DNA from: Natrinema mahii
GTDB taxonomy: Archaea; Halobacteriota; Halobacteria; Halobacteriales; Natrialbaceae
DNA length: 64,000 nucleotides
Reading direction: 5' to 3'
NCBI GenBank assembly: GCA_000690595.2
Contig: JHUT02000001.1
Span: forward strand, 496,001 to 560,000
Shown: in pieces, positions 46,963-57,926 of the stretch
How positions within the stretch are numbered: the stretch's first letter is position 1
Layout: the number at the start of each line of letters is the position of its first letter
The notes under the pieces: generated by a model
What the model was told of the DNA's origin: nothing
Databases searched by the model: none
What the model saw: only the letters and a program-made list of their open reading frames with translations
Program-made: the position numbers and the translations under genes

Positions 46963-47658
46963 TCAGGAAATCAGTGCGGCGAGGTCGATCGCGTCGAGGA
47001 CGACGATCGCGAGGTACAGCTGTCCGACCCCGGCGACGATCATGACGACACCCGCGATCCGTTTGAGCAGCCCGGTGTAGGCCGCGAGCCGGCCCGCGCC
47101 AGCGACCAGCCCCATCCCGGTCGCGACGGTCAGCGACACCATCAACACGACGAAGCTCCCGACGTAGGTCCCCAGCAGGACCGCCGCCGAGGTCGTCGGC
47201 AGCGAGAGCGCGCGGGTGACCACGCCGAAGAACACCGGGGCGACACAGCCGGCCGCCGCCAGCGCGTAGCCGACCCCGAAGATCCCGAACCCGAGGACGC
47301 TCGAGCGGCGTTTGGGAAGCGCGATCGACGGCGACGGGGCGCGATCGAAGACGATCAGGAGGCCGAACGCGATCAGGACGACGCCGGCGACGACCTCGAA
47401 CCAGGTGACGGCCGACAGCGTCGAGTAACCGACCCAGAACGTCGCGCCGAGCAAGACGCCGAAGGTGACCAACACGCCGAGTCCGGCGATCAGCCCGCGG
47501 CTGAGCGCGCCGCCGAGCGATGCGCGGTCGCCGTCGGTCTGGCTGACGTAGAAACCGACGTAGCCGGGCAGGAGCGGGTAGGAACACGGCGAAAAGAACG
47601 TCGCGATTCCGGAGGTCAGCCCGAACGCGATCGACGTTGCGAGTGTGGCATCGACCAT
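46963..47658 (-). CDS. ccdA: CcdA-type thiol-disulfide transmembrane transporter
   Basis: The protein has 231 residues and six hydrophobic helices. The two redox cysteines are in helix 1 (FFSPCSYPLLPGY) and helix 4 (AAAGCVAPVFF), the CcdA/DsbD-beta pattern that carries electrons from cytoplasmic thioredoxin to extracytoplasmic thiol proteins. It is the last gene of a sco1-tlpA-ccdA operon; the tlpA stop precedes its ATG by 1 nt. The start MVDATLATS is chosen because the extension to 47718 is Arg/Ser-rich. Confidence 0.95.
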   Translation of the reverse strand: MVDATLATSIAFGLTSGIATFFSPCSYPLLPGYVGFYVSQTDGDRASLGGALSRGLIAGLGVLVTFGVLLGATFWVGYSTLSAVTWFEVVAGVVLIAFGLLIVFDRAPSPSIALPKRRSSVLGFGIFGVGYALAAAGCVAPVFFGVVTRALSLPTTSAAVLLGTYVGSFVVLMVSLTVATGMGLVAGAGRLAAYTGLLKRIAGVVMIVAGVGQLYLAIVVLDAIDLAALIS

Positions 47659-47659
47659 G

Positions 47660-48202
47660 TTAGTTCTTGATCGCGCGTTCGATGCCGTCGACGAATTCGT
47701 CCGCGGACTTCTGCCCACTGTCGGACCACTGGACGCGTCCGTCGGCGTCGATCGCGACGGCGTAGGGAAGGCCCCCGATCGAGTACTGGGCGCTCAGGTC
47801 CCTGACCGGATCGATGCCGAGCGTCCAGTTTCCGTCGTGTTCTTTCCACCAGTCGACGACCTCTGCTCTCGTGACCGAGCCGCCGACGTTCTCGTTCGTC
47901 ACCGACATGAACAGTACGTCGTCGCCGACTCGCTCGTGGGCCTCGATGAGATCGGGCATCTGCTCGGAACAGGGCGGACACCACGTTGCGAAGAAGTCGA
48001 TGAAGGTCGGCTGATCGGACGCCGGCACGCGTACCTCGCCGGCCTCGCTGCCCGGTGCCTCGATCGTCTCTACCGTCTGTGGGTCGACGGGGTCGGCGTC
48101 TTCGGTACTCCCGAACGAGGGGACGCCGCCGATCGCGACCGCGCTCGCGCCACCGACCACACCGAGGCTACCGATACCGGCAATTAGCTCCCGCCTGCGC
48201 AT
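47660..48202 (-). CDS. TlpA/ResA-like exported thioredoxin
   Basis: The protein has 180 residues. The signal-like N terminus MRRRELIAGIGSLGVVGGAS has a twin arginine. The thioredoxin fold has FFATWCPPCSEQMPDL near residues 68-84, with the WCPPC active site of TlpA/ResA proteins, and a cis-Pro region IGGLPYAV. It likely reduces cytochrome c or copper-site cysteines outside the membrane, with electrons from CcdA. The stop of the Sco1 gene directly abuts its ATG. Confidence 0.95.
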   Translation of the reverse strand: MRRRELIAGIGSLGVVGGASAVAIGGVPSFGSTEDADPVDPQTVETIEAPGSEAGEVRVPASDQPTFIDFFATWCPPCSEQMPDLIEAHERVGDDVLFMSVTNENVGGSVTRAEVVDWWKEHDGNWTLGIDPVRDLSAQYSIGGLPYAVAIDADGRVQWSDSGQKSADEFVDGIERAIKN

Positions 48203-48919
48203 CTAGCCGTTCACCACCGTTTCGAAATCGTCGATCAGGCGGGATACCTCGACTGCGTGCCCTCTGACGTACACGCGTTCGACGATTCCCGCTTCGTTGA
48301 CGAGGAAGATATAGGGGAGATGCGGGAAGGTGTACTCGACGTTCTCGTAATCGTGGTCGTAGTTCTTTTCCAGCGATTCCTCGGGAAGCCCGTAGGTCTC
48401 TCCGATGACCGATTGGGCCGTCTCGTAGCTCTCGGGCCGCAGGAAATGCCAGTTGTCGGCGTCGTAATCGACGCTGCGTCGGTCGGCGAACGTCCGCAGT
48501 TGCTCCGCGGTGTCCCGTTCGGGATCGAACGTCATCGTGAGAAACTCCGCCTCGTCCTCGTACCCGTTTTCGACCGCGGCCTTCTGTGCGCGTTGCAGTC
48601 GCAACGTCAGTGCGGGACACATCCCGTCCGGACAATTGGTGTAAATGAACGTCATCAACACGGTGCGGTCCCCTTCGAACTGCTCGACGGATACCGTCTC
48701 GTCGGAAAGGGGGTCCGGCAGCGTGACCGACGGGTACTCGTCCCCGTAGCTCGGATGCGTCGCCTCGCTGAGGTCCGTCTCCGGCGGTCCGAGAACGGTG
48801 TCGGGATGGCCCGCGTCCCCGTCGTCGTTCCCGTTTCCTCCAAGCGCCTCGCCGAGACAGCCGGCAATACTGGTGAGTCCCACTGTCCCGGCCGCACCGA
48901 GGTATGTTCGCCGGTCCAT
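48203..48919 (-). CDS. Sco1/SenC-like copper chaperone lipoprotein
   Basis: The protein has 238 residues. The start MDRRTYLGAAGTVGLTSIAGC gives a Tat signal with lipobox (SIAGC). The Sco fold has the CxxxC variant in YTNCPDGMCPALT and the ligand His in FPHLPYIFLV. Sco1 delivers copper to the CuA site of terminal oxidases. First gene of the sco1-tlpA-ccdA operon, whose products form one extracytoplasmic redox-copper assembly path. An extension to 49069 is rejected because it has no signal. Confidence 0.94.
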   Translation of the reverse strand: MDRRTYLGAAGTVGLTSIAGCLGEALGGNGNDDGDAGHPDTVLGPPETDLSEATHPSYGDEYPSVTLPDPLSDETVSVEQFEGDRTVLMTFIYTNCPDGMCPALTLRLQRAQKAAVENGYEDEAEFLTMTFDPERDTAEQLRTFADRRSVDYDADNWHFLRPESYETAQSVIGETYGLPEESLEKNYDHDYENVEYTFPHLPYIFLVNEAGIVERVYVRGHAVEVSRLIDDFETVVNG

Positions 48920-49079
48920 AGTCGACCGGAAGGGTGCACCGATCAAAGGTTCATTGGTTCGGTTCCCGAAGAGCGGACGATCGCCCCCGACTCCGTCTGC
49001 GGATCCAGCCCGCTGCGGTGACCGGTCTTCGACCGGCGAACCAACAGGCGTTTGATCGCCGGCTTCCAATCGCCAGTCG

Positions 49080-50201
49080 ATGAACCGTCGGCGTTATCTC
49101 CGCGGCGTTGCCGGGGTCGGGGCGGTCGGAACCGCCGGCCTCGCCGGTTGTCTCGAGCGACTCGGCTTCGAGGAGGAATCGGCGTGGGCGAACCCGCCGC
49201 TGGTCGAGGACCGGCCCGACGCCGTCTACCTGCCGGCGTCGCTCGAGGAGATGGGTATGTACGGGATGGACAGCGACGGTGATTACGCCCTCGGGCTCTC
49301 GTACACGTTTCCGCATCGGTTCTGGACCGTCGAGGCGACCAGCGAGGGCAAACAGCTCGTCGAGGTCGACGCCGACGACAGCCTCCATCTCATGCTGACC
49401 GTCTGGGATCAGGAGACGAACACCGTCCTTCCGGTGGATCCGATCGTCGAGGTGTTACAGGACGGCTCGCCCGTCGACGCCGGCAGCTCGTCGCCGTGGC
49501 CGATGATCTCCCAGCGGATGGGGTTTCACTACGGCGATAACGTCCGCCTCCCTGGCGAAGGCGAGTACACGGCCCGGGTCCGTTCCGGCCCCGTCTCGCT
49601 CGAGCGAACCGGCGCGTTCGACGGCCGACTCGAGTCAGCCGCGACCCTCGAGGTCGACTTCGAGTACAGCCGTTCGGCGGTCAACGACCTCTCGTTCGAG
49701 ACGATCGACGAGGACCGGCGAGGGAACCGCGAGGCCTTGCCCCTGATGTCCCACGGCGATGACGGGGACAGCGGCGAGGCCGGAGACGGGGGCGGCATGC
49801 CACCGATGGGGCAGGGACCGCCGATCGACGACCTCCCCGGCGAGTCGCTGGGGACCGAACGCAGCGGCGACGCGGCGATCACCGCGATCAGGACCGACGC
49901 CGAACGGGTCGCCGACAGCGGCGACTACCTGGCGATCTGTCTCAGAACTCCGTATCACGATATCAGTCTCCCGCTGACGTCGCTGTCGGCGACCCTCGAG
50001 CGAGACAGGTCGGTCCGCCGAGAGGAGCGATTGACCGAGACGTTAGACGGCGAGTTCGGCCACCACTACGGGCTCGCGGTCGACGATCTCGCGGCCGGGG
50101 ACCGACTGACGGTCAGTGTCGACTCCCCGCCGCAGGTGTCCCGTCACGACGGCTACGAAACGGCGTTTTTCGAGTTCGACGACGTGACGTACACGGTGTG
50201 A
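49080..50201 (+). CDS. Tat lipoprotein, DUF7350/iron-transporter-like
   Basis: The protein has 373 residues. The signal MNRRRYLRGVAGVGAVGTAGL ends in lipobox LAGC. The mature protein is beta-rich with two immunoglobulin-like halves, resembling the Tp34/FetP-like metal-binding periplasmic family as used in DUF7350 proteins. Many Met and His residues (EMGMYGMDSDGD, MPPMGQGP, GHHYGLA) could bind copper or iron. It lies divergent from the sco1 operon, with about 160 nt between the starts, so joint regulation by metal is possible. Ligand not proven. Confidence 0.85.
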   Translation: MNRRRYLRGVAGVGAVGTAGLAGCLERLGFEEESAWANPPLVEDRPDAVYLPASLEEMGMYGMDSDGDYALGLSYTFPHRFWTVEATSEGKQLVEVDADDSLHLMLTVWDQETNTVLPVDPIVEVLQDGSPVDAGSSSPWPMISQRMGFHYGDNVRLPGEGEYTARVRSGPVSLERTGAFDGRLESAATLEVDFEYSRSAVNDLSFETIDEDRRGNREALPLMSHGDDGDSGEAGDGGGMPPMGQGPPIDDLPGESLGTERSGDAAITAIRTDAERVADSGDYLAICLRTPYHDISLPLTSLSATLERDRSVRREERLTETLDGEFGHHYGLAVDDLAAGDRLTVSVDSPPQVSRHDGYETAFFEFDDVTYTV

Positions 50202-50417
50202 ACCGATCCCGAATCGTCTCCGAGTGTCTCGAGTTACCCGTCCGCGTCGACCTCGAGTCCGCGCCGGTTTCGAGTTCCGAACTCGAACCGTGATGGAATA
50301 AATCCGACCATAGAGCGGCCACCCGCTCCGAAACGGGTGTACAATCGGTCCGAAACGAATTGCAAGAGTACCGTACGGCTCCGATAACTATCGTGGAGTA
50401 TCGAATACGACCGACGC

Positions 50418-50594
50418 ATGTCCCTGACAGGCAACGCGGATATGGATATCGGCTGCCCGGCGTGTGACGCGACGGTCGTCGCGTCCGTGCCGTCGGGGCC
50501 GGGAATCCACACGGAGAACGATTCGAATCGGTTACTGGGAAAGGAAACCCGGTGTCGGAACTGCGGTCACGAACTCGAGCTGTATTACTATTGA
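50418..50594 (+). CDS. 58-residue zinc-ribbon protein
   Basis: This small gene starts MSLTGNADMDIGCPACDAT and has Cys13/Cys16 and Cys46/Cys49 pairs (CPAC and CRNCGH), a one-zinc ribbon. Codon use is normal and the acidic character is only moderate. CTATCG-type AT-rich DNA upstream (50387-50405) may hold the promoter. Function unknown; small zinc proteins of this type are abundant in haloarchaea. It borders the replication origin. Confidence 0.75.
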   Translation: MSLTGNADMDIGCPACDATVVASVPSGPGIHTENDSNRLLGKETRCRNCGHELELYYY

Positions 50595-50652
50595 ACGACC
50601 GTGCGGGATCGACGGCACCGTTTTCCCGCGGGTTCCGTTTCTCGGCTGAATG

Positions 50653-50698
50653 GTCGGACGAACCGCCAAACGGCAGTCGGACGAACCACCAAACGACA
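50653..50698 (+). repeat. 23-bp tandem duplication in the origin region (a)
   Basis: Two 23-bp units begin GTCGGACGAACC at 50653 and 50676 and are identical at 21 of 23 positions. Confidence 0.85.
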
Positions 50699-50813
50699 GC
50701 TATCCGGGAGTCGTGTCGGCGTCCGGGTGGCGTGCCGGCGAGCGGGACGGCTGCGGTCGTGTATCCCCAGTCCCGACTCGAGCGGCCACCCACTGAGTCG
50801 AGCGGACGTATCC

Positions 50814-50835
50814 CACACCGGGTTTCCGGTGAAAT
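50814..50835 (+). promoter_or_regulatory. Origin recognition box (ORB) 1
   Basis: The site contains CACACCGGGTTTCCGGTGAA, the haloarchaeal ORB core with its internal dyad. An Orc1 binding site by family knowledge. Confidence 0.85.
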
Positions 50836-50878
50836 CGGAGCGAGCCGATCGATTCCATCCGGGACGGCAAGGCCGACA

Positions 50879-50899
50879 CACACCGAATTTCCGGTGGAC
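50879..50899 (+). promoter_or_regulatory. ORB 2, degenerate
   Basis: CACACCGAATTTCCGGTGGA keeps most of the ORB core, with GAA in place of the GGG run. Confidence 0.55.
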
Positions 50900-50935
50900 A
50901 GGACTGAAGGTGCGCAGAGAACAGGACTGAACGTG
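50898..50935 (+). repeat. 23-bp-period duplication (b)
   Basis: ACAGGACTGAAGGTG at 50898 recurs as ACAGGACTGAACGTG at 50921, a 23-bp offset with one mismatch in 15. Confidence 0.7.
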
Positions 50936-51056
50936 ACGGGTGGAGAACCGGGGAGCGAGAGAGGCAGGCCCGGATAGAGACAGATCCGGACGCCGGACGG
51001 AGAGCGGCCGCTGACTCGTGTCGATTCACAACGGAATCAGTGTTATCGATAGCGAT

Positions 51057-51095
51057 GGGGTCGAATCGACGGGTACCACGGGGCCGAATCGACGG
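51057..51095 (+). repeat. 23-bp-period duplication (c)
   Basis: GGGGTCGAATCGACGG at 51057 recurs at 51080 with one mismatch in 16, again a 23-bp offset. Confidence 0.75.
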
Positions 51096-51108
51096 AAGCC
51101 GCTGGTTC

Positions 51109-51130
51109 GGACACCGGGTTTCCGGTGAAG
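51109..51130 (+). promoter_or_regulatory. ORB 3
   Basis: GACACCGGGTTTCCGGTGAA matches the ORB consensus except at the first base. Confidence 0.8.
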
Positions 51131-51211
51131 TCACCGAGTGCTACCGAACCCGTGCTCTAGGGCGGCGCTGTTTTGCCGCCGGTTTGCTGAACCGAGAACC
51201 GTCCGATGAAC

Positions 51212-51297
51212 CTATAGTAGCCACTGAAACGATTCACACACTGATCACGACGCTGTCGTGCGATCAGGTGTGCAATGACTTTCAGTGGCTACTATAG
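51212..51297 (+). mobile_element. Palindromic MITE, copy 1 (86 bp)
   Basis: Perfect 18-bp inverted ends CTATAGTAGCCACTGAAA enclose a second nested inverted repeat (CACACTGATC and GATCAGGTGTG), so the whole element can fold into one hairpin. A diverged copy lies at 62366-62452. It sits between ORBs 3 and 4. No coding capacity; ends in TAG-type dinucleotides as in small MITEs mobilised by full-length IS elements elsewhere. Confidence 0.8.
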
Positions 51298-51355
51298 AAC
51301 CGTCGCTTCGCCGAGCGCGGCTGCCCCTCGAGCGAGTTTCGGGTGGACATCGCTC

Positions 51356-51392
51356 GATGAGCGCGGCAGTTCGCGATGAGCGCGGCAGTTCG
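51356..51392 (+). repeat. 19-bp-period duplication (d)
   Basis: GATGAGCGCGGCAGTTCG occurs at 51356 and 51375 without mismatch. Confidence 0.8.
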
Positions 51393-51406
51393 ACCGCCCG
51401 CACAGT

Positions 51407-51427
51407 CACACCGTGTTTCCGGTGAAA
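51407..51427 (+). promoter_or_regulatory. ORB 4
   Basis: CACACCGTGTTTCCGGTGAA differs from ORB 1 by one base. Confidence 0.8.
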
Positions 51428-51465
51428 CGGGGCGAAAGACACCGCCCGAAAGCGGTGTAGGGGCC

Positions 51466-51486
51466 CACACCGTGTTTCCGATGAAA
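51466..51486 (+). promoter_or_regulatory. ORB 5
   Basis: CACACCGTGTTTCCGATGAA differs from ORB 4 by one base. Confidence 0.75.
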
Positions 51487-51513
51487 CCGTCCATGGAGAT
51501 GAGGCAACTCTCG

Positions 51514-51582
51514 GCGGGCGTTCAATGGCGCGATCGGCGGGCATTCAATGGTGTGATCAGCGGGCATTCAATGGTGAAACCC
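51514..51582 (+). repeat. Three 23-bp tandem repeats (e)
   Basis: Units beginning GCGGGC-G/A-TTCAATGG start at 51514, 51537 and 51560. The first two are alike over about the full 23 bp, the third over 17. Confidence 0.8.
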
Positions 51583-51598
51583 GGCCGATCGCTCGAGC

Positions 51599-51634
51599 GG
51601 TCGATCGGACTACAGAGCGGTCGATCGGACTACA
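51599..51634 (+). repeat. 20-bp-period duplication (f)
   Basis: GGTCGATCGGACTACA occurs at 51599 and 51619 without mismatch. Confidence 0.75.
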
Positions 51635-51722
51635 ACGGTTCAGCAACCCTGCAAGGCCGACACAATGGTGTGATTGATCGGTTCTACTCTCGGGATACGT
51701 TTTCGGAAGTACAGTCCGAACT

Positions 51723-51756
51723 GCGATTGATGACTCGTTGCGATTGATGACTCGTT
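51723..51756 (+). repeat. 17-bp perfect tandem duplication (g)
   Basis: CGATTGATGACTCGTTG is present twice head to tail, directly before the AT-rich block. Confidence 0.85.
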
Positions 51757-51770
51757 GTCGACCGCCTCAG

Positions 51771-51846
51771 TATAGGGCTACAGTATAGATACATATAAGT
51801 AATAGATATGAGTATAGTTCATTGAGCAAATCAAAAAATAGAGTAA
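51771..51846 (+). other. AT-rich duplex-unwinding element candidate
   Basis: A stretch of about 75 nt with strings such as ACATATAAGTAATAGATATG and AAATCAAAAAATAG is far richer in A/T than anything nearby. It lies between plus-strand ORBs 1-5 and the ORB cluster before orc1/cdc6, the expected place for helix opening. Confidence 0.7.
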
Positions 51847-52048
51847 GAGCAATCGGAAGGGTTGCAGTCGAATCGGTGGATCGAAGCAGCAGTGTCGACG
51901 GGATGTCGACGGGAGGATGACCGATTGTTCGTCCCGACTCGAGGGGACGTGTTCGTCCCGGCCGCCCGGGCCGAACGACTCGGATGGCCGCGTTTCGAAC
52001 CATTTGACACCGAATTTCGACTAGCCGACATGACGTTTCGAACTGTCC

Positions 52049-52070
52049 CACACCGGGTTTCCGGTGAAAT
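52049..52070 (+). promoter_or_regulatory. ORB 6
   Basis: CACACCGGGTTTCCGGTGAA is identical to ORB 1. It is the last box in the plus orientation. Confidence 0.85.
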
Positions 52071-52112
52071 GAACCCCCACTTCCACTGCACCCCACCCCC
52101 CGCTTCTCCCCG

Positions 52113-52133
52113 TTTCACCGGAAACCCGGTGTG
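52113..52133 (-). promoter_or_regulatory. ORB 7, inverted
   Basis: The box reads CACACCGGGTTTCCGGTGAA on the minus strand, facing ORB 6 across about 45 bp. Confidence 0.85.
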
Positions 52134-52295
52134 TGTCCGCGACCGATCCTCGACCGCGATTGTCGGGCCCAATCTCGAGGCACCGATCGAAGGCGCGGCG
52201 GTCGATGCGCCAGTTCGGGCCGGAATCGGACTCACGATGCCGAATCCGATCCGCTCGCCCGTCTCTCGAATCGCCGCCGCGGAACGGAAGGGCTA

Positions 52296-52316
52296 TTTCA
52301 CCGGAAACCCGGTGTC
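52296..52316 (-). promoter_or_regulatory. ORB 8, inverted, abutting the orc1/cdc6 start
   Basis: The minus-strand ORB core ends 5 bp before the ATG at 52322. It therefore overlaps the promoter or 5' end of orc1/cdc6 and probably lets the protein repress its own gene. Confidence 0.85.
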
Positions 52317-52321
52317 CGACT

Positions 52322-53527
52322 ATGTCGAGTTCCGGCGATGATCTGTTCACTCGCGACGACCCGATCTTCGAGAACAAGGAGCTACTCGAGATCAACCACT
52401 TGCCCGAGGAAGGGCGGATCGTCGGCCGGGACGACGAGATCGCCGAACTCGCGAACGCGGTCAATCCGGCGATCTTCGGCCAGAGTCCGAGCAACCTCCT
52501 CATCTACGGCAAGACCGGGACGGGCAAGTCCCTCTGTGCGAAGTACATCTCCGAACGGCTCGTCCGGGTCGCCGAAGACGAGGGGATCACGTCGGCGTTC
52601 GCCTACGTCGACTGCGCACAGGACAACACGGAGACGCAGGCGGTCCAGACGATCGCGCACACGTTGAACGAGCCGGCGGTCACCGACGTCAGGATTCCGG
52701 ACAAGGGGCTGAGTACCTCGACCTACTACAAGCGGCTCTGGACGGTGCTGGACGCCCAGTACGACGTCGCCCTGGTCATCCTGGACGAGGTCGACAAGCT
52801 CGACGACGACGACATCCTCATGCAACTCTCGCGCGCGGGCGAGGCCGGCAAGCTCGCGTCGTGCAAGATCGGCGTCATCGGGATCAGCAACAAGATCAAG
52901 TACAAGGATCGGCTGGACGAGCGGGTCAAGTCCAGCCTCTGTGAGCGGGAGTTCGTCTTCCCGCCGTACGACGCGACCCAGCTCCGGGACATCATGGAGG
53001 CCCGCAGCGACGCGTTCAAGGACGGCGTCCTCGAGCCGTCGGTCATCCCGCGGGCTGCCGCACTCGCGGCCCGGGAACACGGCGACGCCCGGAAGGCGAT
53101 CGACATCCTGCGCTACGCCGGCGAGATCGCCCAATCGGAGGGCCACGAGACGGTTCGCGAGGAGTACGTCGTTCAGGCGCGCGAGCGAGCCGAGACCGAC
53201 CGGTTCCGGGAACTCATCCGCGGCTCGACGCCTCACTCCCGCTACGTGTTACAGGCCCTCGCGGTCCTCTCGCTCAATACGCCCGACGAGGACGGGTTCC
53301 GGACGACGCGGATCTACGACGTCTACGAGGAGATCTGCCGGCAGGAGGGCTCCGACCCGCTCTCCCTGCGCCGCGTCCGCGATCTGCTGAAGGAACACGC
53401 CTTCCTCGACATCCTCGAGCAGACTCGCCGCAGCGGCGGCAGCGCGGAGGGCAGCTATACCGAACACCAGTTGCTCGAGGACCCGGAGGTCGTCCGGACC
53501 GTCCTCGTCGAAACCGACGAGCCGTAA
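52322..53527 (+). CDS. orc1: Orc1/Cdc6 replication initiator
   Basis: The protein has 401 residues. The AAA+ core has Walker A YGKTGTGKS at residues 62-70, Walker B ALVILDEVDKL at 150-160, sensor 1 IGVIGISNK near 180, and sensor 2 GDARKAIDIL near 258. A C-terminal winged helix begins near residue 310 (TTRIYDVYEEICRQEG). It binds the ORBs that surround it, melts the adjacent AT-rich DNA and loads MCM. The start MSSSGDDLFTRDDP is chosen because the in-frame extension to 52133 runs through two ORBs. Haloarchaea have several Orc paralogs, and this one is origin-linked. Confidence 0.97.
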   Translation: MSSSGDDLFTRDDPIFENKELLEINHLPEEGRIVGRDDEIAELANAVNPAIFGQSPSNLLIYGKTGTGKSLCAKYISERLVRVAEDEGITSAFAYVDCAQDNTETQAVQTIAHTLNEPAVTDVRIPDKGLSTSTYYKRLWTVLDAQYDVALVILDEVDKLDDDDILMQLSRAGEAGKLASCKIGVIGISNKIKYKDRLDERVKSSLCEREFVFPPYDATQLRDIMEARSDAFKDGVLEPSVIPRAAALAAREHGDARKAIDILRYAGEIAQSEGHETVREEYVVQARERAETDRFRELIRGSTPHSRYVLQALAVLSLNTPDEDGFRTTRIYDVYEEICRQEGSDPLSLRRVRDLLKEHAFLDILEQTRRSGGSAEGSYTEHQLLEDPEVVRTVLVETDEP

Positions 53528-53563
53528 CCGATCGGGAAACACTGTGACCACATCCGGTCGACA

Positions 53564-53584
53564 TTTCACCGGAAACCCGGTGTC
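53564..53584 (-). promoter_or_regulatory. ORB 9, inverted, downstream of orc1/cdc6
   Basis: The minus-strand box has a full ORB core 36 bp after the orc1/cdc6 stop codon, so the initiator gene is bracketed by ORBs. Confidence 0.85.
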
Positions 53585-53629
53585 CCGGCTCCGGGAGCCG
53601 ATCGCCCGGTTCCGACTCCCCTCTCGGCG

Positions 53630-54814
53630 TTACTGCCCCGTCGTCCAGCCCCGCGGGGTGTCGTTCAGCCGTTCGGCCCCGTCCTCGGTCACCGCGACGA
53701 GATCCTCGATGCGGACGCCGAACCGCCCCTCGAGGTAGATCCCCGGTTCGACGCTGAACACCATGCCGGGCTCGAGTTCGCGGTCGTTGTCCGCGGCGAT
53801 GTAGGGCGGCTCGTGGACCTCGAGGCCGACGCCGTGGCCGGTCCGGTGGACGAAGGCGTCGCCGTAGCCGGCGTCCTCGATGACCGATCGCGCCGCGCGG
53901 TCGATCGCTCCTGCGGTCACACCTGGTTCGACCGCCTCGACGGCGGCCGCCTGTGCCTCTCTGACGGTCTCGTGGACGCGTTCGTACGCCGCGGGCGGCT
54001 CGTCGCCGACCACGATCGTCCGGGTTTGATCGCCCGGATACCGTCCCATAGCAGTCGCCGCACTTCCCTCGAGGTCGGCCGCGACGAAGGCCCCGAAGTC
54101 CAAGACGACGGGGTCACCGTTCTGGATCTCCCGCGAGCCGCTGTGGTGGTGCGGTTGCGCGCCGTTCGGGCCGGCGGCGACGATGGTTTCAAACGCCGGT
54201 TCCTCTCCGCCTTCCGCCGCGAGCAATCGATCGATCTCGGTCGCCAGTTCCGCTTCGGTGGTCCCGATCAGGTTCGTCCCCCGCTCACGGATTTCGAGCG
54301 CGACCCGGTCGGCGATCGCCCCGGCCCGCCGCAGTGTCTCGAGTTCGACGTCGTCCTTCCGGATCCGAAGTGGCTCGAGGACGGTCCCCGCGAGTCCGAA
54401 CGTGGCGTCGGGACACAACTCCCGCAGGTCCTGCGTGAACGTCGCCCACATGCGGTCGTCGACGAGGACCGTCGGCGGCTCCCGATCGGCCCGCGGACTC
54501 GCTCGAGTCTCGAGCGAGTAGCCCTCGAGGACCGCCGCGACGGTCTCGAGCGGGTCGTCGGAGTCGGTCCAGAATCGCCGTTGCAGGATCGGAATCGGAA
54601 GTTCGGACAACTGACCTTCGTACATCGCCGGCGCGATGACCGCGGGGTCCCCGTCGCGGGGGATGAAAAGCAGCAGGTGCCGCTCCGACGGCGACTCCTC
54701 GAAGCCGGTCAGATAGGTCAGGTTCGGGCTCGGGAAACAGACCGCGAGGTCGGCTCCTTCCGCCGCGAGCCGGCGCTTGCAGGCCGCGATGCGGCGCTCG
54801 AACGGTGGTTCCAT
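53630..54814 (-). CDS. M24 family Xaa-Pro peptidase
   Basis: The protein has 394 residues from MEPPFERRIAACKRRL. The creatinase/prolidase layout is seen: an N-terminal domain with LAVCFPSPNLTYLTGFEESPSER, and a C-terminal pita-bread domain with metal ligands Asp in LDFGAFV, Asp in PGDQTRTIVV, His in HRTGHGVGLEVHEPPY, Glu in FSVEPGIYL and Glu in VRIEDLV. It cleaves dipeptides or N-terminal residues before proline in the cytoplasm. An upstream extension runs through the 18-bp tandem array and is rejected. Convergent with orc1/cdc6. Confidence 0.94.
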   Translation of the reverse strand: MEPPFERRIAACKRRLAAEGADLAVCFPSPNLTYLTGFEESPSERHLLLFIPRDGDPAVIAPAMYEGQLSELPIPILQRRFWTDSDDPLETVAAVLEGYSLETRASPRADREPPTVLVDDRMWATFTQDLRELCPDATFGLAGTVLEPLRIRKDDVELETLRRAGAIADRVALEIRERGTNLIGTTEAELATEIDRLLAAEGGEEPAFETIVAAGPNGAQPHHHSGSREIQNGDPVVLDFGAFVAADLEGSAATAMGRYPGDQTRTIVVGDEPPAAYERVHETVREAQAAAVEAVEPGVTAGAIDRAARSVIEDAGYGDAFVHRTGHGVGLEVHEPPYIAADNDRELEPGMVFSVEPGIYLEGRFGVRIEDLVAVTEDGAERLNDTPRGWTTGQ

Positions 54815-54870
54815 GGGTCGGTGTTCGCTCGAGCGGGGAATCAACGTTTGGTTAGTCGGGTGTGAAGGCG

Positions 54871-54946
54871 GCTCCCGTCGTGAAAGCGGCTCCCGTCGTG
54901 AAAGCGGCTCCTGTCGTGAAAGCGGCTCCTGTCGTGAAAGCGGCTC
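54871..54946 (+). repeat. 18-bp tandem array, four units
   Basis: Units GCTCCCGTCGTGAAAGCG (twice) and GCTCCTGTCGTGAAAGCG (twice) lie head to tail from 54871 to 54942, with a partial unit on each side. There are no spacers. The array is upstream of the M24 gene in its promoter region. Function unknown. Confidence 0.9.
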
Positions 54947-55376
54947 AACGATATCAACCGTCTTGCTATCGTGGCAACACGGGGTAGCCACGCCCTCCCC
55001 AGCCGATTCGCTCGCTGCTCACGGTTCCCGTTGGTCACCGTTCGCTTTCGAGACCTCCCCTCCGGTCGGCCTCGCACCGCTCGCTCATCCACTGTCAGAG
55101 CAAGCTCTGACAAGCCTTCGCTCGTGAAACTCGCGAAGACCTCGCGCGGTGTCGTCGGCCGTCCTCGTTGGCACTCGTCCGGCCGACAGCGCACGCCACC
55201 GCCAGTCGTTTCCTGATGCCGACGACTCGAGCCATCGCCGAACGCGTCGGTTTCCTGGAGAGACCGTCGCCACAGGCGGACGATCACGCGAGCGCGAACA
55301 CCGTCGGGAACGTATTAACCCCCCAGCGATGGCAGGCCGCGAAGCAACCCGTCGGGACGCTGTGTCATTACAGCGA
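54947..55376 (+). other. Intergenic region upstream of otsA
   Basis: No supported gene. Contains the hairpin TCAGAGCAAGCTCTGA at 55097-55112, and the otsA promoter candidate GTATTAACC at 55312-55320, about 57 nt before the start codon. The central 200 nt are Arg/Ser-coding in all frames and may be a decayed sequence. Confidence 0.45.
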
Positions 55377-57083
55377 ATGCGAGTTACCGAGCGGTTGTCG
55401 TCGACGGCTGTACGGAATCGACAGCGCCGGGCCGACGGGCGAGGGCGAACCGACGACGAGTCCGCGACCGACGGGCCGAGCTGTCCCGGTTCGCTGATCG
55501 TCGTCTCGAACCGGCAACCGTATCGTCACGAGTACGACGACGCGGCCGACACCGCGTCCGATGCCGACGCCGAGTCCGCGAGCGACGGCGCGGAACCGCC
55601 GACGGGGGCCGACGGCGGTGCCCGTCAGAGCGCGGCCGCGGCGACCCGGTCGATCACGGTCGACGAGCCGACCGGCGGGCTGACCGCCGGGCTCGATCCC
55701 GTCGTCAAGCGGACCGACGGCACGTGGATCGCCTGGGGCGACGGCGAGGCCGACTTCGACGTAACCGACGAGCGAAACTGCGTCGCCGTCCCGCCCGAGG
55801 AGGAGGCCTACACCCTCCGCCGGCTCGACCTCTCGGAGGAGGCCGTCGACTCCTACTACTACGGCTTCAGCAATCGCGTCCTCTGGCCGCTCTGTCACGG
55901 CTTCCCCGACCTGATCGAGGACCGATCGAACGACTTCGAGTGGTACCGGACGGTCAACGAGCGGTTCGCCGACGCGGTCGCCGACCACGCGACGGCCGAC
56001 TCGGTGATCTGGCTGCAGGACTACCACCTCGCGCTCGCACCGCGGCTGATCCGGGAGTCCGTGCCGTCCGGTGCGACCGTCGCCCACTTCTGGCACATCC
56101 CGTGGCCGTCGCCGCCGACGTTTCGGCAGTGTCCCGCCGGCGGCCGCGTCCTCGAGGGACTGCTCGGCAACGACCTGCTGGGCTTTCACGTCGAGCAGTA
56201 CGCGGATCGGTTCCTCGAGTGTGTCGACCGGTTCCTGCCGACCGCGACGGTCGACCACGCCCGTCGAACGGTCCGGTACGAGGGAGGACGGACCCGCGTC
56301 GTCGCGACGCCGATGGGGGTCGACGCCGAGGCCTACGACCGGGACGCGCGATCGGTCGATCCCGGCCGCCTCACCGAACTGTGCGAGGAGTACGACATCG
56401 CGCCCAACGCGACGCTCGGGCTGGGCCTCGACCGCCTCGACTACACGAAGGGGATTCCCGAACGGCTGGCGGCCATCGAGCGCTTCTTCGAGCGAAACCC
56501 GGGCTGGCGCGGCGAGTTCACGTTCCTCCAGAAGGCGACCCCCTCGCGGACCGACATCGAGACCTATCAGCGCCACGGCGACCTCGTCCGCAGCGAGGCC
56601 CAGCGGATCAACCGCCGCTTCGAGACCGCCGACTGGCAGCCGATCGCCTACACCGAAGACTACCTCTCGACGGCGGAGATCTGTGCGCTCTACCGGCGCG
56701 CGGATGTGATGGTGGTCAGCCCGCTGGTCGACGGGATGAACCTGGTCGTACAGGAGTACGTCGCGGCCAGCGTCGACGGCGACGACGCGCTGGTGTTGAG
56801 CGACCGGACCGGCGCACACGAGCGGCTCGGCTCCCACGCCCTGACGATCGACCCGACCGACACCGACGGGTTCGCGGCCCAGCTCGAGGCGGCGCTCTCG
56901 ATGCCGGCCCACGAACGCCGGCGGCGGATGAACACGCTGCGCCAGCGCGTGTTCGCTGGCGACCTCGAGTCGTGGATGGCTACGCAGTTCGACTGGTTCC
57001 GGCGGCTCCGCGACGAGCGGGGTCGGACCGACGCGGGCTCGGACAGCGATTCCGACTCGCGGGAACCCACGCCGCCGGTCTAA
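55377..57083 (+). CDS. otsA: Trehalose-6-phosphate synthase (GT20)
   Basis: The protein has 568 residues from MRVTERLSSTAV. The GT-B enzyme shows LIVVSNRQPY, WLQDYHLALAPRLIRE near residues 208-223, GLDRLDYTKGIPERLAAIERF near 345-365 and SPLVDGMNLVVQEYVA near 448-463, all GT20 landmarks. A 50-residue acidic Ala/Asp/Ser insertion splits the first strand from the PTGGLTAG loop. It makes trehalose-6-phosphate from a nucleotide-glucose and glucose-6-phosphate, with osmotic protection as the usual role. otsB follows after 3 nt. Confidence 0.95.
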   Translation: MRVTERLSSTAVRNRQRRADGRGRTDDESATDGPSCPGSLIVVSNRQPYRHEYDDAADTASDADAESASDGAEPPTGADGGARQSAAAATRSITVDEPTGGLTAGLDPVVKRTDGTWIAWGDGEADFDVTDERNCVAVPPEEEAYTLRRLDLSEEAVDSYYYGFSNRVLWPLCHGFPDLIEDRSNDFEWYRTVNERFADAVADHATADSVIWLQDYHLALAPRLIRESVPSGATVAHFWHIPWPSPPTFRQCPAGGRVLEGLLGNDLLGFHVEQYADRFLECVDRFLPTATVDHARRTVRYEGGRTRVVATPMGVDAEAYDRDARSVDPGRLTELCEEYDIAPNATLGLGLDRLDYTKGIPERLAAIERFFERNPGWRGEFTFLQKATPSRTDIETYQRHGDLVRSEAQRINRRFETADWQPIAYTEDYLSTAEICALYRRADVMVVSPLVDGMNLVVQEYVAASVDGDDALVLSDRTGAHERLGSHALTIDPTDTDGFAAQLEAALSMPAHERRRRMNTLRQRVFAGDLESWMATQFDWFRRLRDERGRTDAGSDSDSDSREPTPPV

Positions 57084-57086
57084 CGG

Positions 57087-57926
57087 ATGACCAGCACCGA
57101 ATCCGGAACCGCCGCTGCCGAGTCCCCGCCTCGGCCGCTCGAAGACGGGTTCCCGGCCGTTCGAGCGAGCCTCGCGGACGCCGAGCGGTTGCTGGTCTGT
57201 CTCGATTTCGACGGGACGCTGGCGCCGATCGTCGACGAGCCCGACGCGGCCCGACCGACCGACGACAACCGCCGTGCCGTCGCGAGGCTCGCCGATCACC
57301 AGGACGTGACGACCGCGGTCGTCAGCGGCCGGGCGCTGCGGGACGTCCGCGATCGCATCGACGGGCCGGCGATCTACGCCGGCAACCACGGCCTCGAACT
57401 CGCGCGACGGGGCTCGATCGCCGTCCATCCCGTCGCGCGGAAACGGGCCGCCCGGATCGACCGCCTCTGTGCGGTCCTCGAGACCACGCTCGCGTCGATC
57501 CCGAACGTACGGATCGAGAACAAGCGCCTGTCCGGGACGGTGCATTTCCGGTCCGTGCCGCCGGCCGCCCGCCCGGTCGCCCGTCGGCTCACGACCGCCG
57601 TCTTCGAGGCGTTCAGCGGCGGCGCGCTCGAGCTCTCCCGCGGGAAGCGGATCCTCGAGATCGGGCCGTCGATCCCGTGGGGCAAGGGGAACGCGGTCGA
57701 GTTGATCGCGGCCGACAAACCGCCGGGGACGGCCACCGTCTACGTCGGGGACGACGTCACCGACGAGTCGGCGTTTCGGGCCGTCGAGCCGGGCGGGATC
57801 GGGGTCCGGGTCGGCGGTGACGGTCCGTCGGCCGCCTCCTATCGGGTCGAGTCGCCGGCGGGCGTCGCGTCGCTGCTTTCCCTGCTCGAGGACGTCGTGT
57901 CACCCGACCCCGTGCGGCGGCCCTGA
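57087..57926 (+). CDS. otsB: Trehalose-6-phosphate phosphatase
   Basis: The protein has 279 residues of the HAD superfamily. Motif 1 CLDFDGTLAPI near residues 35-45 has the nucleophile Asp. Motif 2 is VVSGRALRDV, the substrate loop is GNHGLELA, and motifs 3 and 4 are GKGNAVELI and VGDDVTDE. It removes phosphate from the OtsA product. The pair forms one operon and is a complete trehalose pathway. Confidence 0.95.
   Translation: MTSTESGTAAAESPPRPLEDGFPAVRASLADAERLLVCLDFDGTLAPIVDEPDAARPTDDNRRAVARLADHQDVTTAVVSGRALRDVRDRIDGPAIYAGNHGLELARRGSIAVHPVARKRAARIDRLCAVLETTLASIPNVRIENKRLSGTVHFRSVPPAARPVARRLTTAVFEAFSGGALELSRGKRILEIGPSIPWGKGNAVELIAADKPPGTATVYVGDDVTDESAFRAVEPGGIGVRVGGDGPSAASYRVESPAGVASLLSLLEDVVSPDPVRRP

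Follow-up and report, generated by a model that had tools for sequence, protein, structure and literature searches.

Is the box-studded segment around an orc1/cdc6 gene of Natrinema mahii a replication origin, and if so, of which kind? The segment occupies positions 50595 to 53584 of a 64-kb stretch of contig JHUT02000001.1 (positions 496,001 to 560,000, hereafter the window), and a sequence-only reading had described it as an origin in which nine origin recognition boxes (ORBs) bracket the initiator gene. Our analysis indicates that it is a real and well-conserved origin of a known family, that its number of boxes is ordinary and that it is probably autoregulated. We consider it highly likely that the locus acts as a secondary chromosomal replication origin of the oriCb family, with its nine boxes bound by the adjacent Orc1/Cdc6 protein. 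The boxes, their geometry, their conservation and their co-occurrence with orc were observed directly in the genomes compared here.

Searching the 64-kb window with the box pattern CACCGGGTTTCCGGTGAA and up to three mismatches yielded exactly nine matches, all within the origin region, compared with 0.08 expected and a maximum of one from 100 shuffles. Across the whole 3.79-Mb genome, the origin region holds 8 of the 9 matches with up to two mismatches and 9 of the 17 with up to three. Five boxes on the plus strand form a left cluster at 50816–50833 (box 1), 50881–50898 (box 2, degenerate), 51112–51129 (box 3), 51409–51426 (box 4) and 51468–51485 (box 5). They are followed by an AT-rich block at 51767–51846 (27.5% GC), the probable DNA unwinding element; only 9 of the approximately 63,920 80-nt stretches in the window are as GC-poor. 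To its right lie box 6 on the plus strand (52051–52068) and the inverted boxes 7 (52114–52131), 8 (52297–52314) and 9 (53565–53582). Six of the nine boxes match the pattern exactly, and boxes 2, 4 and 5 carry three, one and two mismatches, respectively. The frame of the initiator gene is intact on the plus strand from the ATG at 52322 to the stop codon ending at 53527 and encodes 401 amino acids with AAA+, lid and C-terminal winged helix regions. Box 8 ends 7 nt before the ATG and box 9 starts 37 nt after the stop codon. The sequence-only reading had placed nine boxes here, six on the plus strand and three inverted, with the AT-rich block between boxes 5 and 6 and inverted boxes at the start and past the stop of orc, and all of this agrees with our search. 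The window boxes continue with GGTGT, immediately followed by GGG in three of the nine. A half-box at 50543–50561 was set aside as coding, inside the upstream zinc-ribbon gene.

Boxes and gene occur together. All 22 Natrinema genomes with this orc have 9–12 box matches genome-wide (up to two mismatches), compared with 0–2 in the 7 genomes without it (29 genomes in all). By chance such a split would arise once in 1,560,780 cases if the genomes were independent; as they are related, this value is indicative only. At 80 named loci of relatives, a set containing no H. volcanii or H. mediterranei records, boxes were counted within 1.7 kb of the gene start (one locus, L105, is cut by a contig end) and numbered 1–11 per locus. 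The counts in Natrinema and in the relatives thus rule out that nine boxes are unusual. The earlier statement that the locus holds more boxes than usual is valid in comparison with the textbook oriC1 but fails within its own family. Box-rich origins have also been described elsewhere: another Natrinema origin has 8 ORBs (PMC5350488), and at Haloarcula hispanica oriC2 there are 11 on the downstream side (PMC3936714). A solitary box-like site, CACCGTGTATCCGGTGAA, is found at G000:C1:250452-250469 (L008, L146) and also in two Natrinema genomes lacking this orc (G017, G023).

The layout is conserved as well. Of the 80 loci, 79 have an inverted box that starts 23–38 nt upstream of the orc start, the exception being L089 with a box at -54. 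In 74 of 78 loci, the 80-nt stretch richest in AT on the upstream side of orc has a plus box on the left and a box on the right. Every one of the 21 Natrialbales loci has two or more plus boxes on the left. Downstream, a counterpart of box 9 (+1150 to +1700) is present in 18 of these 21 loci versus 10 of the 59 others. Among relatives the number and spacing of the left boxes vary freely, whereas boxes 6–8 are nearly fixed.

The oriCb family was defined by Wu et al. (2012) by an Orc/Cdc6 at least 80% identical to its members Hvo_orc5, Hbo_14700, Hla_1524, Htu_5222, Hje_08365, Nma_3611 and Hxa_0635 (PMC3528665). The closest named relative by Orc is Natrinema thermotolerans with 100% identity. 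The window Orc shares 90.8% identity with a protein of Haloterrigena turkmenica pHTUR04 and 80–81% with proteins of 11 Haloferax contigs, both at or above the family threshold; from replicon and rRNA context we infer that the former is Htu_5222 and the latter are orc5 orthologues. A family-specific box lies next to orc, with the same core at the loci of the 80 relatives (a comparison made without the published logo), and inverted boxes are found on either side of the AT-rich region. Judged by its sequence, the locus is the Natrinema member of the already known oriCb family, that of Haloferax volcanii oriC2-orc5. Family membership and layout also back the claim of the sequence-only reading that this is a replication origin.

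Within oriCb, Hvo_orc5 is tied to an rRNA operon and Htu_5222 belongs to a second type that is mostly extrachromosomal (PMC3528665). We checked the rRNA context with a single 16S motif over all 80 loci and an Rfam scan over 12 of them. A 16S motif or Rfam rRNA match is located 3' of orc in 11 Haloferacales loci (L077, L081, L093, L104, L107, L109, L111, L112, L118, L119, L121), and the 64-kb window, which has no Rfam match, lacks the rRNA operon of this Haloferacales type. The locus belongs to the other, Natrialbales/plasmid type of oriCb. It differs from that mostly extrachromosomal type in being chromosomal in Natrinema, for example on one 3.59-Mb contig.

An assignment to oriC1 was ruled out: the oriC1 initiator Orc1-1 and its distinct TCCANNNGAAACGAAGGGG boxes sit on contig C4, and the window Orc is 38% identical to Orc1-1 over the aligned N-terminal part. 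The genome holds a dozen Orc-like matches, the oriC1 gene among them. At G000:C1:734661-735857 (L010, L141) it encodes a 57%-identical Orc paralogue with one in-frame TGA, possibly a pseudogene.

The box next to the orc start bears on the regulation of the initiator. The TATA element of a leaderless transcript is expected at the position of the CTATTTCACC stretch, and in Natrinema the start-proximal box begins inside this stretch (21 of 22 loci shown; L189 could not be oriented). In the window, box 8 overlaps the end of a CTATTT stretch. Since the box occupies the expected TATA site, bound Orc should block the promoter. Autoregulation, which the sequence-only reading took to be implied by the arrangement of the boxes, is a fair and plausible conclusion, strengthened by the presence of the inverted box in all but one of the relatives. 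Box 8 overlaps the probable orc promoter, so that the initiator probably represses its own gene, and the conserved start box makes autorepression open to direct test. In the same genome, an oriC1-type box also precedes the ATG of the oriC1 initiator gene, by about 35 nt (L140, 4890-4935), as in many relatives, which suggests that the overlap of initiator boxes with promoters is general.

The sequence-only reading treated the locus generically and overlooked a conserved module formed by box 6, an element that we call X, and box 7. X is typically AACCCCCGTTTCAACTGGACCCC, a G-string element, and it is kept even where box 6 has decayed; Halorubrum loci mostly lack it. The order of box 6, 24 bp, X, 40 bp and box 7 is kept from Natrialbales to Haloferacales. 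Spacing was measured in 54 loci with an X-like element, including a few poor matches (L059, L097, L099, at 60-63). From box 6 to the start of X, the distance is 24 bp in 31 of these, 23 in 5 and 22 in 1; it extends to 32–34 bp in 4 and to 41–42 in 2, and box 6 was not recognised in 11. The outliers near 33 and 41 bp are about one and two helical turns longer, a hint at phasing. From X to the start of box 7, it is 40 bp in 31 and 38–41 bp in 50 of the 54. In the window, the two arms of the module, boxes 6 and 7, enclose a diverged copy of X on the minus strand (52074–52090; a C-string on the plus strand and an ORB-like dyad), and the geometry is kept, with 23 nt from the start of box 6 to X and 40 nt from X to the start of box 7. 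This conserved module is part of the origin and deserves experiment.

We built a model of the oriC1 ORB with 14 positions from 57 ORBs at 30 oriC1 loci and ranked sites within 2 kb of the orc start, with local boxes masked, in 77 loci (three others lacked a usable box 7). In 34 of the 77 loci the first rank falls to a site in the gap between boxes 6 and 7, and in 46 the best gap site is among the top five. When the columns of the model were permuted 300 times, the rank-1 count had a mean of 0.6 and a maximum of 10, so none is as high. Moreover, for all 45 X elements selected with an X-like pattern, the oriC1 model outscores a leniently trained model of the local boxes, which disfavours X as a degenerate local box. 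As X in the relatives fits the oriC1-type ORB and not the local type, Orc1-1 may also bind secondary origins of this family at X, beside the local Orc, coupling them to the main initiator. We put this forward tentatively on the basis of the relatives, as a possibility less likely than not. Several features of X weigh against it. The first base of X is mostly G, as opposed to T or C in oriC1 boxes, and the G-run of X lies two bases earlier. The window X scores -5.9 bits under the oriC1 model, with low scores likewise at L050, L059 and L067, and the rank-1 site of L083 is a plus-strand site other than X. With this score, and with the best gap site ranking 36, the window copy was ruled out as a good oriC1 box. 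In the clade of the window, where X has drifted, coupling to Orc1-1 may be weakened or altered, which would make it a natural experiment.

There is an appreciable chance, somewhat short of even, that X is instead the site of another factor, akin to the Sulfolobus ucm/UBP motif or to the G-rich enhancer repeat of haloarchaeal oriC1. Like the oriC1 enhancer, X is C-rich and located inside an inverted box pair (PMC3936714), and in Sulfolobus an essential non-ORB motif between ORBs is bound by UBP (PMC12141716), yet the dyad of X matches the oriC1 ORB model in particular, as the permuted models show. At nine other orc loci of the same genome no oriC1-type site is strong, the best reaching 13.2 bits compared with 24.9 at oriC1. 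A window site at 51335 with 11.7 bits was not counted; eight sites in the 64 kb reach at least 10.6 bits. Haloarchaeal origins are each said to depend on their own Orc, yet in H. hispanica the gene of the oriC1 initiator resists deletion far more than oriC1 does (PMC3936714). We found no mention of an oriC1-type site in such a secondary origin in the literature searched, which did not cover subscription papers, supplements or the 2007 H. volcanii origin paper. How several origins per cell are coordinated is an open question in archaea. If Orc1-1 does bind X, a conserved oriC1-type site at fixed spacing would be a concrete link between two initiators, open to mutation and to test in Haloferax with its intact X.

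How might such an origin work? The adjacent Orc1/Cdc6 would bind all nine boxes in a defined polarity. The left plus cluster (boxes 1–5) would face the right inverted boxes (7 and 8), with the AT-rich block between them as the site of MCM helicase loading. On the right flank, boxes 6 and 7 with X at its fixed spacing would make up a rigid nucleoprotein module, and box 9 together with the many left boxes would probably hold or titrate the initiator. Autorepression, titration and the function of X are what we infer from this arrangement, and for origin activity and its dependence on orc we rely on published work on relatives. H. volcanii no longer initiates at oriC2 once orc5 is deleted (PMC6063281), and H. 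mediterranei has three active chromosomal origins, of which oriC3 is marked by the orc5 orthologue cdc6G (PMC4595724). Weak support for an origin comes from GC skew: after detrending, the cumulative curve over 400 kb has its peak at C1:547,951, within the origin.

Other observations count against an active origin at this site. The raw cumulative skew peaks at 671 kb, and the contrast over ±50 kb at the origin ranks only about 36 of 600 positions. Seven of the 29 Natrinema genomes lack the locus, which is thus dispensable. The classical G-string is missing from most boxes (33 of 502 have GGGG within 14 nt), although this lack is family-wide in these loci and hence does not set the window locus apart. 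On plasmids in Natrinema J7, a region in which 5+1 ORBs flank a 1206-nt gap yielded few transformants (pFJ3, ~39 per µg), and 'oriC4' with 8 ORBs yielded none together with its cdc6 (PMC5350488). By one published primer, 'oriC4' maps to the oriC1 locus; a primer for 'oriC5/6' had no match with up to two mismatches in the 29 Natrinema genomes and no convincing one in nine Natrinema loci. The pFJ3 region may be the counterpart of the window origin, a likely match that the primers did not bear out and that rests solely on the gap being as long as the orc gene. Since ORB-rich fragments of J7 transform poorly, box number does not guarantee plasmid replication; plasmid tests in the host may fail and a chromosomal test is better.

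Alternatively, the origin could be dormant or decayed in this strain, its initiator and boxes persisting while firing is normally silent, as at Haloferax mediterranei oriC4. The strain has several other orc genes including that of oriC1, its X has drifted, a miniature inverted-repeat transposable element (MITE) sits between boxes 3 and 4, six short tandem duplications have accumulated in the origin region, and the locus is missing from some congeners. Nevertheless, the orc frame is intact, most boxes are exact, the start box, the AT-rich block and the module geometry are kept, and the GC skew turns at the site; we therefore regard dormancy as unlikely. Closer to an even prospect, yet below it, is that boxes 1–4 and 9 mainly titrate the initiator and that the AT-rich block and boxes 5–8 alone form the working origin, similar to Haloarcula hispanica oriC2 with its ORB-rich oriC2D. 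There, oriC2D with 11 ORBs reduces origin activity (PMC3936714), and the contrast among relatives between freely varying left boxes and nearly fixed boxes 6–8 fits this division of labour. The retention of at least two left plus boxes throughout Natrialbales does not, nor does the polarity of the left boxes, which is opposite to that of boxes 7–9 as two-sided MCM loading needs. That the boxes are operators of an ordinary transcription factor with no replication role is very improbable: one box does lie at the orc promoter, but genome-wide the boxes cluster only at this orc, they accompany it across the 29 Natrinema genomes and are oppositely oriented on the two sides of an AT-rich block, and one origin of the family has been mapped by experiment (PMC6063281).

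The locus resembles described oriCb origins in Orc type and in the AT-rich region that lies upstream of orc between inverted boxes (PMC3528665). Haloferax loci, from the family of H. volcanii oriC2-orc5 and H. mediterranei oriC3-cdc6G, have the same start box, the pair spacing of 64 and element X, but differ in that an rRNA operon lies downstream, the downstream box is absent and X is intact, whereas X has drifted in the window. Haloarcula hispanica oriC2-cdc6E with oriC2D likewise has many boxes on both sides of cdc6 and possible titration; it has 11 downstream ORBs compared with one here and is not among the oriCb members listed in the consulted part of PMC3528665. A secondary origin bound by its own Orc as well as Orc1-1, as X would imply here, is found in Sulfolobus solfataricus oriC2 (PMC6742236), although its boxes differ and Orc1-1 binding was tested there and is only predicted here. 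We further drew on PMC4441112, PMC7776575 and PMC4010727.

The neighbourhood of the origin is shared with a plasmid. From 46963 to 57926 the window encodes CcdA, TlpA, SCO, a Tat protein, orc, an M24 peptidase, OtsA and OtsB, and the same order is found on H. turkmenica pHTUR04; the CcdA label of the window gene is based on position, as Pfam gave no match. For the plasmid type of oriCb, by contrast, the family description reports no common gene order (PMC3528665). A 214-kb plasmid of Natronorubrum bangense has the same gene set, but no peptidase adjoining orc. As the eight-gene block is chromosomal here and plasmid-borne in H. turkmenica, the origin and its neighbours have moved as a unit between chromosome and plasmid.

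The MITE at 51212–51297 is an 86-bp palindrome with perfect 18-bp arms, and its arm sequence occurs in 68 + 71 copies in the genome (up to two mismatches). The six short tandem duplications (periods of 17–23 bp) lie at 50653–51757 within the left box cluster, compared with 0–5 in the matching region of 21 relatives, and look like recent, strain-specific slippage or repair. Finally, an 18-bp unit is repeated 4.7 times with 97% likeness at 54862–54946, at the 5' end of the M24 peptidase frame, whose true start may be downstream.

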